Below are positions 35,797 to 39,198 of a stretch of 39,198 bases of DNA, one piece after another. A model generated the notes under the pieces. It worked only from the letters and a program-made list of their open reading frames with translations, searched no databases and was not told the origin of the DNA. Source of the stretch: Brumimicrobium salinarum (GTDB taxonomy: Bacteria > Bacteroidota > Bacteroidia > Flavobacteriales_D > Crocinitomicaceae). Location: positions 1 through 39,198 of the forward strand of contig NZ_PJNI01000023.1 in the NCBI RefSeq assembly GCF_002844555.1. Reading direction: 5' to 3'. Position 1 is the first letter of the stretch; every line of letters starts with the position of its first letter. A program made the translations under genes and the position numbers.

Positions 35797-36039
35797 TCAA
35801 CGCTCTCTAATTTTCGGTTGATTTTGTAGAATATGAGATGCGATTTTATTAGTGAACAGAAATAACTTTTTTTGCGTGACTATAATTTTTTCCCGATTCT
35901 GGATTTTTTGCTAAATATTCAATTTCGTCCATTATTAAGTTAAAATATCTGTCCGCTTGTTTGAGCGACCAGTTTTCAAACGTGTAAAGCCAATGTTTTT
36001 AATATCTTGATTAGCTTCTTGACTGATCTTGTAATCCAT
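35724..36039 (-). pseudogene. ParE-type toxin of a type II toxin-antitoxin pair, two frameshifts
   Basis: Read with two corrections this is a complete toxin of about 105 residues of the RelE/ParE fold: MDYKISQEANQDIKNI, then WLYTFENWSLKQADRYFNLI and EIEYLAKNPESGKNYSHA, then KSYFCSLIKSHLIFYKINRK and SVEIIRILHQ. The first break is near 35991-35993 (one T too few before GGC), the second at the seven-A run 35867-35873 (one A too few). The ATG at 36039 shares a base with the parD stop, the normal antitoxin-toxin coupling. Either the toxin is inactivated in this strain or the sequence has two indel errors. Confidence 0.75.
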
Positions 36040-36287
36040 TATTCAGTCAAATGATTTTGATGAAGGTCATTCAAAAGTCTATTTCTATCGAAATTCTCTA
36101 AAAAACCAGACTTTTCACCTTTTTTTAGTTCTTTTACGAGTTCGGTCTTTTTAATTTCTTCGTGCTCGAACATTCTCAAAGCTGCTCTAACAACTTCACT
36201 CACTGAAGAGTATTTTCCAGTCTTGATTTGTTGATTGATAAAACTATCAAAATAATCACCCAACAAAATTGATGTATTTTTTGCCAT
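36039..36287 (-). CDS. ParD-type antitoxin (ribbon-helix-helix, CopG/CC2985 family)
   Basis: The 82-residue protein neutralises the ParE toxin and represses its own operon. ATG 36287 starts MAKNTSILLGDYFDSFINQQ, the RHH strand and first helix, followed by TGKYSSVSEVVRAALRMFEHEE, the hallmark of ParD (GxYxSxSEVVRxALRLLE), and a charged toxin-binding C-terminus. A longer frame to 36368 would run through the palindromic operator and is not the start. The 45-bp perfect palindrome directly upstream is the expected autoregulatory site. Confidence 0.9.
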   Translation of the reverse strand: MAKNTSILLGDYFDSFINQQIKTGKYSSVSEVVRAALRMFEHEEIKKTELVKELKKGEKSGFLENFDRNRLLNDLHQNHLTE

Positions 36288-36294
36288 AATCTTT

Positions 36295-36339
36295 AATTTA
36301 CCATAAATATACCAAGACTTGGTATATTTATGGTAAATT
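36295..36339. promoter_or_regulatory. Perfect 45-bp palindrome, probable ParD operator
   Basis: Two arms of 22 bp (36295-36316 and 36318-36339) are exact reverse complements around a single base; the inner part reads ATACCAAGACTTGGTAT. It ends 8 bp before the parD ATG and contains a TATATTTA -7-like box on the minus strand, so a bound ParD dimer array would cover the promoter. Confidence 0.75.
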
Positions 36340-36348
36340 ACATAAACG

Positions 36349-36398
36349 AAGAACGGCGAAGCCCTCACGAATACCTATAAAAAATAGACAAGAAATGA
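36349..36398 (+). repeat. Short GC-headed, AT-tailed element 1 (left junction of the intron remnant)
   Basis: Contains ggcgaagccctcacgaatac and a tail ending aagaaatgag. It marks the point where the group II intron reverse transcriptase begins (GVPQGSP from 36405); the part of the intron upstream of it is missing. It aligns with the inserts at 36967 and 37189. Confidence 0.5.
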
Positions 36399-36614
36399 GT
36401 AAAGGGAGTTCCACAAGGTTCTCCAATAAGTCCGTTATTGTCTAATATTCTACTCAACGAGTTGGATAAAGAACTGACAAGACGCAAACTCCGATTTGTA
36501 CGCTACGCAGATGATTTTAGCATTTATACTCAGTATAAAAGCCATGCAACTGCAACGCTAAAAGCCATTGAAAAGTTTTTGAAAACAAAGCTTAAACTCA
36601 CCATAAATCGTGAA

Positions 36615-36666
36615 CTTAGCGAAGCGATCTCATGAACACCTTTGAAAAAACAATAAGAGTGAATAA
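36615..36666 (+). repeat. 52-bp insert in the reverse transcriptase (element 2)
   Basis: Lies between codons for LTINRE and KSGVRKP. It reads cttagcgaagcgatctcatg and then an AT-rich tail ending agagtgaataa. Exact edges are set by restoring the maturase frame and may move by a few bases. Confidence 0.6.
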
Positions 36667-36861
36667 AAAAGTGGAGTTAGAAAACCAGTTCAATTTGAAC
36701 TATTGGGATTCGGATTTGAATCAACTTACAGGAAAGGAGATAAAGGTAAATACCAATTGGTTGTAGGGAAGAAAGCATGGAAAAGATTGAAACAGCGACT
36801 AAAAGTCTTCACCCGAAAAACCACTCCGATGACCTTTGATGAGCGTATCCAAAAGATTAAC

Positions 36862-36889
36862 GACCGCCGAAGGCAGCAGCGAAGCTAAC
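36862..36889 (+). repeat. GC-rich insert, left copy of a 28-bp inverted repeat
   Basis: Begins gaccgccgaaggcagcagcg and is the reverse complement of 37402-37429 with a single mismatch. It sits between codons for IQKIN and LQRGWLNYF, adds about 24 bp in frame and introduces a stop. Confidence 0.6.
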
Positions 36890-36966
36890 TTCAACGTGGA
36901 TGGTTAAACTATTTTCGTGGAACAAGTATCAAAGGAAAACTCAGAGATGTTGACGGATGGCTACGA

Positions 36967-37018
36967 ATTAAGCGAAGCGAATCACGAATACAAATAAAAC
37001 AAAATTAAAGAATGAGTA
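36967..37018 (+). repeat. 52-bp insert in the maturase domain (element 3)
   Basis: Splits GWLR from NRLRYCIW. It reads attaagcgaagcgaatcacg, aatacaaataaaac and a tail ending aagaatgagtaa. Same length as element 2 and the best match to element 5. Confidence 0.65.
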
Positions 37019-37060
37019 AATCGACTTCGCTATTGCATTTGGCACCATTGGAAGAATTGG

Positions 37061-37110
37061 AGCGTAGCGGAAAACACGAACACAAATAAAAAATAATAAT
37101 GATGTGAGCT
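37061..37110 (+). repeat. About 50-bp insert in the maturase (element 4)
   Basis: Splits HHWKNW from NPERKRKN. It contains gcgtagcggaaaacacgaac, acaaataaaaaataataatg and a tail ending gtgagcta. Edges uncertain by a few bases. Confidence 0.55.
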
Positions 37111-37188
37111 AACCCTGAACGGAAGAGAAAGAATCTTATTCGATTAGGAATTGACCAAGACCATGCATACGCTTACAGTCGCACCCGA

Positions 37189-37238
37189 ATTAAACGAAGT
37201 GAATCATGAATACAAATAAAAATAAACAAGAATGAATA
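37189..37238 (+). repeat. 50-bp insert in the maturase (element 5)
   Basis: Splits YAYSRTR from MGGWAVA. It reads attaaacgaagtgaatcatg, aatacaaataaaaataaac and aagaatgaata. It begins with the same att after a cga codon as element 3. Confidence 0.65.
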
Positions 37239-37262
37239 ATGGGAGGGTGGGCAGTTGCTCAC

Positions 37263-37310
37263 CTGCGGAGCAAGCTTTCATACAATAAAAAACATACAAG
37301 AAATGAAAAA
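37263..37310 (+). repeat. 48-bp insert in the maturase (element 6)
   Basis: Splits GWAVAH from RPILRTT and is the only one of the family that keeps the frame open. It reads ctgcggagcaagctttcata, then an AT-rich tail with acaagaaatgaaaaa. A further 22-bp GC-rich insert (cacgaagtagcaccgaagg) follows at about 37332-37353. Confidence 0.55.
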
Positions 37311-37401
37311 CGTCCAATTCTAAGGACAACACCACGAAGTAGCACCGAAGGTAATCACTATTTCAAGGCTAAAGAAGCGTGGTTATGTAGCAATGTTGGA
37401 A

Positions 37402-37429
37402 GTTAGCTCCGCTGCTGCCTTCGGCGGTC
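37402..37429 (-). repeat. GC-rich insert, right copy of the 28-bp inverted repeat
   Basis: Reads gttagctccgctgctgcctt and is the inverse of 36862-36889 (27 of 28 bases). It lies at the end of the maturase reading frame just before RNA domain V. Confidence 0.6.
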
Positions 37430-37445
37430 ATTTATCGCTTAACCC

Positions 37446-37578
37446 TTCAAGGTACGAACCGCCGTATACGAGACCCGTATCCCGAAGTTTCGGGAGTGGT
37501 GTGAGATCGGAACGATGCTGCACCGATGCGTCTGCAGGCGCACTCCGTCAGCTTAGCTGGCGGAGCCGTCTACTCGAT
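37446..37578 (+). ncRNA. Group II intron RNA domains V and VI, domain V disrupted
   Basis: The domain V half gaaccgccgtatacgagacc is followed, where the pairing strand should come, by a small palindrome (tcccgaagtttcgggag) and then tggtgtgaga, so the helix is broken. A domain VI-like stem ctccgtcagc-ttag-ctggcggag (37543-37565) and the canonical 3' end gccgtctactcgatt follow. The maturase frame runs into domain V as in intact introns of this class. Confidence 0.65.
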
Positions 37579-37591
37579 TACAGCCATTTAA

Positions 37592-38413
37592 TTAATTTAT
37601 CAGAGCTGTTGTTTTCCAAGGCTTCCAATAAACCGTATCATTCTTGTATAATGGTGATTCCCCATAAATAGTGTCATGTTTTTTTGATACAACTAAATTT
37701 CGTCCTATAAATTTATTTCTTGTTTCACTCTCCGAGTCAGTTCTCCAGATAAAAATCGTTTCCCTGCATTCTATGCTATCATTAATCAATAAAGAAATCT
37801 TAACACTATCATTCGAATAAATCCGAGTATTTGCAGATAATGATGCCTCTAAATGATTGATGTCATCAACTGAAAATTCTGTGAGCGAATTACTGTCAAT
37901 GATTGAACGGATCAGTTCTTTATGTAACTCCTCAATAAATACAATTGCATCTGTATAGTCGCTAACGTGCTTAATCTTGTCGAAATACTGAATAATTATA
38001 GACGATACTGATGATTTTTCAAGTTTTTTATTACTCGATATAACTTGTTTTAAATTAAATGTATCTAAATCTTTCTCGAGAATTGGTTCTAATTTATAGT
38101 AGTTACCATATGCTATTGCAGTTGTTTTTACATACGTGTCTAAGATATCTTTAAGAGCATTATCATTTTCACTATTCTCAAACAACTTAGACTTATACAA
38201 CTTTCTGATTTTTCTTAAATTGATCAATGTCCGAATCCCATCATGTGTTTCTCCATCATATTTAGTAAACGTTGAATTAAGAATTTTATCTGTTAAACTG
38301 TCATTATACAACGAAATTGATTCGATTTTTTTTTCACGTATTAACTCCTCCTTATTGGAAGTTTGGCATCCTATGACTAGAAATATTAAGAATGTTATAT
38401 AAATTAATCTCAT
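37592..38413 (-). CDS. Hypothetical lipoprotein
   Basis: I do not recognise this family. The 273-residue product starts with a lipoprotein signal (IFLVIGC, Cys16) and continues as a mostly helical, charged domain (about 25-190) followed by a strand-rich end with SVKISLLINDSIECRETIFI and TIYGESPLYKNDTVYWKPW, which could be a small beta domain. The gene ends 14 bp after the intron remnant and is followed upstream by a structured intergenic element. Low similarity in style to housekeeping genes of the window suggests accessory origin. Confidence 0.75.
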   Translation of the reverse strand: MRLIYITFLIFLVIGCQTSNKEELIREKKIESISLYNDSLTDKILNSTFTKYDGETHDGIRTLINLRKIRKLYKSKLFENSENDNALKDILDTYVKTTAIAYGNYYKLEPILEKDLDTFNLKQVISSNKKLEKSSVSSIIIQYFDKIKHVSDYTDAIVFIEELHKELIRSIIDSNSLTEFSVDDINHLEASLSANTRIYSNDSVKISLLINDSIECRETIFIWRTDSESETRNKFIGRNLVVSKKHDTIYGESPLYKNDTVYWKPWKTTALIN

Positions 38414-39107: not shown

Positions 39108-39133
39108 CTAAACTGCGTTTTAATGCAGTTTAG
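39108..39133. other. Stem-loop immediately before the right-edge intron
   Basis: CTAAACTGC pairs exactly with GCAGTTTAG around the loop GTTTTAAT, followed by gttttgt and then the putative intron start at 39141. Class C group II introns typically insert a few bases downstream of such stem-loops (terminators or attC sites). Confidence 0.6.
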
Positions 39134-39140
39134 GTTTTGT

Positions 39141-39198
39141 GTGTGCCCAGCATGGGCATCTTTACCTTACGAAAGTAAGGAATTAATCTAAAGGGTGC
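39141..39198 (+). mobile_element. Probable 5' end of a second group II intron (continues outside window)
   Basis: The sequence opens with GTGTG, the group II 5' boundary consensus (GUGYG), followed by the tight hairpin TGCCC-AGCAT-GGGCA (39144-39158), a second hairpin CCTTAC-gaaa-GTAAGG (39165-39180), and tctaaagggtgc at the edge. This order (GTGyGCCCAGCATGGGC... TCTA..AGGGTG) is that of domain I starts of bacterial introns that end in the type of domain V seen at 37450. Only 58 bases are visible. Confidence 0.55.

Follow-up and report, generated by a model that had tools for sequence, protein, structure and literature searches.

A very small mobile repeat, about 50 nt long and with covarying ends, occupies fixed sites in the reverse transcriptase genes of group II introns in Brumimicrobium salinarum and its relatives, with a pattern that resembles homing. 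In the window, i.e., the whole stretch of B. salinarum DNA that was analysed (39,198 nt), a single maturase remnant is interrupted by six inserts of 48–56 nt and three of 22–24 nt. Very small mobile repeats are known, but the way in which they choose their sites and move is mostly not. The present family is bacterial; its empty sites are clear and its covariation strong, sequenced relatives represent several stages, and one gene family is hit repeatedly at the same sites. With these features, direct tests are possible both of how targets are chosen and of which enzyme does the moving. It also means that mobile introns are themselves invaded by something far smaller. As a kind of element, tiny mobile hairpin repeats are already familiar in broad terms, while the behaviour and the host seen here are apparently new; among the papers listed by literature searches, none reported inserts like these from group II introns, although such a report may exist.

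The remnant was defined by protein-to-DNA alignment with P0001, an intact ORF of 438 aa from the sister species G001 (Uncultured Brumimicrobium sp. isolate 4-911; Crocinitomicaceae, Flavobacteriales), and shows 96% identity and zero stops in the matched codons. It begins near residue 176 of 438, so that this maturase is broken for a second reason besides the inserts, namely truncation on its 5′ side. RVT_1 is recognised on the uninterrupted piece 36399–36611 (1.3e-15), and intact P0001 contains both RVT_1 (3.5e-40) and GIIM (3.4e-16). The RNA family RF02001 (group-II-D1D4-3) was found in L086, L145 and L151; the same search gave no match in L214 and L294, nor in the window, where the 5′ half of the intron is missing. 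Curated Rfam families had zero matches at gathering score in the window, and at 36300–37600 there were chance-level scores only, far below it. A reverse transcriptase with a maturase domain, together with the catalytic RNA domains, argues that the host is a group II intron.

Directly to the left of the remnant lies a ParD-type antitoxin gene (36039–36287, minus strand; PF03693, 9.4e-25), and a near-perfect, operator-like long palindrome (~36294–36340) is located between the start of this gene and the remnant. The end of the window (39130–39198) resembles the start of another intron-like copy; the same start occurs in L020 (G000 C1:59330, in the B. salinarum genome), almost directly joined to an intron 3′ end, as if it were a miniature remnant without ORF. 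Four further contigs of this genome (C2, C13, C22, C23; L029–L032) terminate inside an intron 3′ end, so multi-copy introns have probably been collapsed and are missing from the draft assembly.

Table 1. Features of the maturase remnant and the eight maturase sites (A–H) of the long family; coordinates are those of the window, residues those of P0001.
Feature	Coordinates	After residue	Strand	Comparison or other occurrences
Group II intron maturase remnant, residues ~176–434 of the 438-aa P0001, nine inserts	36326–37479		+	protein-to-DNA alignment with P0001
Site A (outside the remnant)		64		G005, L294, L151 (= G049 C71), G049 C47
Insert, site B (KRR^KGVP), 49 nt	36353–36401	184	+	empty in L145 and L117 (G005); occupied by the same head variant in L086, L214, L151
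Insert, site C (NRE^KSG), 52 nt	36615–36666	255	+	empty in L145; occupied in L086, and in L117 (G005) with another head variant
Short 24-nt element, second family	36865–36888	321	-	L086, L214 and L294 have the identical 24 nt here; reverse orientation at 37405
Site D (unoccupied in the window)		344		L295, L303
Insert, site E (WLR^NRLR), 52 nt	36967–37018	347	+	empty in L145; common to L086
Insert, site F (HWK^KPER), 56 nt	37055–37110	359	+	empty in L145; L086, L294 and L295 carry a similar variant here
Insert, site G (RTR^MGGW), 50 nt	37189–37238	385	+	empty in L145; occupied in L086, L016, L087, L217 (one residue slack), L151, L344 (G049 C53)
Insert, site H (AVA^QSPI), 48 nt	37260–37307	392	+	empty in L145, L016; occupied in L086, L087, L151 (one residue slack)
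Short 22-nt element, two mini-hairpins with GAA loops	37332–37353	400	+	absent in L016, L145; same site in L086, L087, and in L217 with changed stems
Short 24-nt element, family of 36865–36888, opposite orientation	37405–37428	417	+	sequence comparison
Palindrome TCCCGAAGTTTCGGGA, replacing a few bases of the intron 3′ region	37480–37495		.	compared with L145, L016, L087

An earlier note, made from the letters of the window alone, had described six long and three short inserts in this gene and proposed an alignment with intact homologues to fix their edges. All nine are where it placed them, with edges shifted by a few bases by the intact homologue; the edges are uncertain by a few bases because A's are common to the insert ends and to the targets (Table 1). 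L145, the insert-free copy of G001, is free of all nine segments and reads through the nine sites uninterrupted, and its nucleotide identity in ungapped segments is 95–99% both to the window and to the insert-bearing copy of the same genome. The latter (L086, on another contig) is a near-full-length copy with the same six long and three short inserts, to which it adds one long insert upstream of the ORF and, where the ORF starts, another 24-nt element. A second remnant in the B. salinarum genome (L016, G000 contig C7) has the insert of 37189 and is without those of 37260 and 37332, hence empty sites are present within the own genome as well. G005 carries an insert at a site that is empty in G001, and its contig-end pieces of copies are insert-free in residues 1–180 and 300–438. 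The empty sites are clean, a 2-bp AA target duplication being indistinguishable from the shared A's; at site H bases have seemingly been lost. A supposed scar at residue 386 of the insert-free copy was rejected, as K and M are both present at this position in other maturases. Short palindromes of another set are not cleanly inserted but take the place of a few bases of coding or intron sequence (L086 at ~555 and ~413, and the last row of Table 1).

The same sites are used in diverged introns, as mapped by protein-to-DNA alignment. Protein identity to the reference is 80% for L294, 77% for L217, 76% for L214, 64% for L151, 61% for L295 and 59% for L303. The eight sites hold 18 inserts from seven introns or intron groups (Brumimicrobium pooled as one group, L214 and L294, both of G216, counted apart, one residue slack allowed, C47 and C53 left out), and random choice among the 62 codons with a GRA motif gave a mean of 16.1 sites and a minimum of 10 in 100,000 trials. 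A site before the ORF is common to L086 and L294, too. Same-site inserts in greatly differing introns point to a very small mobile element that would have a strong choice of landing site. The proposal of the earlier note that a repeat "entered one dispensable gene many times" understates its reach: genes of this kind are occupied at the same sites in further genera and families, and many copies lie outside introns.

The distribution of the family was followed with a sequence-only profile built from 11 copies. In the own genome (3.41 Mb) it finds 14 matches at E<=1e-3, 7 in intron remnants on contigs C16 and C7 and 7 elsewhere, which places the family beyond chance; 11 or 12 of the 14 are members of the model or identical to one. 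At E<=0.01 there are matches in 21 of 59 relatives, with the own genome counted among the 59; within the genus, the match counts of the ten genomes are 15, 15, 11, 14, 7, 3, 0, 1, 1 and 3, and G049, from another family, has 19. In the search of relatives that the earlier note had called for, 9 of the 10 Brumimicrobium genomes contain the family, as do 17 of 399 of the order at E<=1e-5, and a sister species has empty sites. These dispersed copies, the empty sites and the differing insert sets of related genomes give good support to its suggestion of a small non-autonomous mobile repeat. Over 94 loci (80 kept of 167 candidates, plus 14 others) 12 matches were obtained at E<=0.05, and two exact patterns searched in viral contigs gave 0 and 0 matches. 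A part of the copies outside introns lies within the loop of palindromic repeats: the mean loop probability at 53 such sites is 0.43, against 0.30 in the control, while at 23 sites labelled as intron (wrongly so for a single site, in L117) it is 0.23 against 0.38. Hairpin-loop insertion was rejected as a general target rule, its support coming from outside introns only.

Across the family, the copies share a mini-hairpin near the left end, a C-GNA-G core with a covarying closing pair, and a conserved left-central motif, TCAYGAAN, which covaries with the right end N′TGARTAA, with near-invariant G.A juxtapositions in between; insertion mostly adjoins a G in a GAA-like target. Covariation was measured on 101 matches (91 distinct rows). 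The pair of the left mini-hairpin is G-C in 38 rows, A-T in 14 and unpaired in 5, with 34 rows without letters. In the column pairs 1–7, 15–68 and 16–66, 96.9% of cells are paired, a value reached by 0 of 500 shuffles; columns 16/66 show T-A 49 and C-G 29 times of 83, and columns 15/68 A-T 74, T-A 6 and G-C 1 of 81. Column 20 and the base before TGA form Watson-Crick pairs in 80 of 83 rows, and each of the four pair types occurs; shuffling gave 33.7 on average and at most 48. When one row per 85% cluster is kept, 36 of 39 are paired (shuffled 14.1). Between the covarying pairs, G17/A65 and A18/G64 are nearly invariant. Three of five covariation measures exceed all 500 shuffles; the other two, double-change pairs and pair types, fail to do so because only four pairs were named. 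DNA folding energy was better than that of own shuffles in 0 of 6 sequences (z -0.6 to 1.4); energy models fail to predict the helix, and the structure rests, therefore, on covariation. In terms of their letters, the copies covary as a folded single strand would. A protein reading the site on both arms, in place of a folded strand, keeps some small probability, and between the left target and the element nothing convincing was seen in the way of covariation.

The reading preferred here, with a probability of roughly 0.57, is that of a non-autonomous micro-repeat of ~48–56 nt which moves as a folded strand, with a homing-like site preference and a layout like that of IS200/IS605 ends. Much as IS200/IS605 ends or REP sequences do, the element would rely on an enzyme that it borrows and would be mobilised in single-stranded, folded form (ssDNA most likely), and a guide beside the hairpin would pair with the terminal cleavage site. 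The layout consists of target flank, left mini-hairpin, guide-like TCAY, right pairing and terminal RTAA. In IS200/IS605 ends, the cleavage site is paired with four nucleotides that lie at the foot of the hairpin (PMC6006769, PMC8266576), and the covarying letters may by analogy be guide and cleavage site. The site preference, combined with spread between intron copies, would produce the homing-like pattern. The interrupted maturase would most likely be inactive, and the persistence of interrupted introns would then depend on help in trans from an intact copy.

The IS200/IS605 ends and REP sequences (TnpA Y1/HuH) are alike also in being small folded single-strand signals with a strand-specific behaviour (PMC6006769, PMC8266576). 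They differ in that here the whole element is ~50 nt, enters the coding sequence of intron reverse transcriptases at recurrent sites, and has no Y1 gene found with its ends. Y1 (PF01797) genes are present in 42 of 59 genomes, the genus included; among 20 stretches examined and up to 40 loci searched with a strict pattern, none has these ends, and G002 holds 11 copies of the element but one Y1 match. No constant REP-type GTAG/GTGG tag was seen at the hairpin foot in the copies compared, and the Y1 genes examined occur with other repeats; an origin from RAYT/REP was rejected since the flanks of the Y1 genes viewed hold such other repeats. Beside IS200-type Y1 genes of G000 and G003 there are arrays of AATCCCGAAGGGATGA-like repeats (L184, L191), and Y1 genes of 201 aa (L180, L185, L187; two of them adjacent in G000 C5) each follow the same long REP-like palindrome.

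It is possible, if doubtful, that the group II introns themselves spread the inserts, with a reverse transcriptase that copies a small structured RNA or switches templates between intron RNAs, the short insert thereby passing from an occupied to an empty copy in a gene-conversion-like way. Half of the own-genome matches are in introns, and all 36 intron copies counted by hand are in the sense direction (a weak antisense match of 12 bits in L222, just after the maturase, was left out of the 36); this orientation counts for the preferred reading as well. Alike site-A inserts occur in two diverged introns of G049, and the window and L086 have one and the same site-B insert, even though to its left each resembles a different insert-free background. 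A similar idea has been raised for yeast mitochondrial GC clusters (PMC4478555). By contrast, G002, G003 and G004 hold 11, 14 and 7 copies of the element without a P0001 match at E<=1e-10, and the flanks of the site-B insert in G049, much unlike those elsewhere, speak against long conversion tracts. As for orientation relative to replication, copies on contigs C12 and C1 of G003 are uniform (6 plus, 4 minus); in the genus, the element strand agrees in sign with GC skew in 12 of 15 unmixed windows for total skew and in 11 of 15 for third-position skew, in G049 with total GC skew in 2 of 4, and a link between strand and GC skew is only suggestive.

A different and rather improbable explanation is that the inserts are tolerated, being removed from RNA or skipped in translation, with interrupted maturases that are functional and selected. 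In its favour, the aligned ORFs of L214, L217, L294 and L151, inserts aside, have no frameshift and no stop before residue 432. Moreover, among 225 codons compared between the window and L086 (palindrome-touched segments of L086 left out), 24 differ synonymously and 4 nonsynonymously, and the shared inserts differ in 7 of 378 columns versus 26 of 225 third positions. However, the same numbers would arise if the codon differences predate the inserts, as the mixed backgrounds suggest; taken as sequence counts they are compatible with selection acting on interrupted genes and equally with older backgrounds that have recombined and received inserts recently, and the mixed backgrounds together with the patchy subfamilies favour the second of these, though not decisively. 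Against tolerance stand also the loss of frame in L086, in which two coding segments are replaced by palindromes, the truncation in the window and, in the G005 maturase, a stop at 284. The lengths of 20 distinct maturase inserts are spread over the frames (8, 7 and 5 modulo 3), and in 14 of the 20 the reading frame of the upstream codon runs into a stop within the insert. Rickettsia palindromic elements are short repeats inside genes that are kept in frame, and the likeness to them seen by the earlier note does not stand: insert lengths are indifferent to frame and stops are common, so these are not peptide inserts of that type. Programmed translational bypass elements (byps) have matching take-off and landing codons within an expressed gene. 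At sites A–C no such codon match was visible by eye, and bypass of the T4-gene-60/byps type was kept as a low-probability reading. The fuller version, a long shot, holds that the micro-repeats are benign and removable at the RNA or translation level, that the interrupted maturases are still made and selected, that the repeats home to fixed sites like miniature introns, and that insert-free copies come from reverse-transcribed processed RNA; if true, bacteria would have a type of removable intervening sequence that is both tiny and new.

Ancient insertion followed by vertical inheritance, with loss in most introns, would also place inserts at the same sites in diverged introns, and two comparisons are compatible with it. 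The site-A inserts of G005 and L294 are alike in 40 of 51 columns, and the site-G inserts of G049 C71 and C53 in 49 of 54; the hosts of the latter pair are close relatives (introns 83–93% identical), so that it is no evidence against inheritance. This explanation is nevertheless very unlikely. Over the main matched pieces, the reverse transcriptases of G049 C71 and C47 are only 27–42% identical; the site-A inserts of these two introns nevertheless agree in 43 of 53 columns, including 25 of the first 26, and are unlike those of G005 (36/59) and L294 (35/55). At site C, the subfamily in the window (G000) is not that of G005, in spite of the small difference between the two introns. An insertion of at least 15 nt is absent in 31 of 32 further maturases aligned (31 of 80 loci, plus L146). 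The case against pure inheritance rests mainly on the C71/C47 pair, on site C and on the patchy distribution. An assembly artefact, or chance likeness of low-complexity AT-rich DNA, has a negligible probability, since sites and variants are common to assemblies of several genera and covariation is far above shuffles, even if some copies are near contig ends.

The family has small counterparts in other lineages. Cyanobacterial very small dispersed repeats (SDR) are mobile and tens of bases long; by description they are set apart from the Brumimicrobium family by their lineage and sequence. Fungal double-hairpin elements and sponge RHE are tiny hairpin repeats and are grouped with the yeast mitochondrial GC clusters; unlike all three, the family described here is bacterial, has another sequence and fold, and occupies fixed sites of one gene family. 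GC clusters (e.g., GC42) are similar to it in that they are tiny hairpin repeats, some of them in introns, with a patchy distribution and with intron-encoded enzymes suspected of helping them (PMC4478555).

Plasmid-borne relatives of the maturase are numerous (675 records, the best at 88%). In another genus, the long element occurs three times in tandem (L300 2288–2443) at the upstream end of an ORF of 434 aa.
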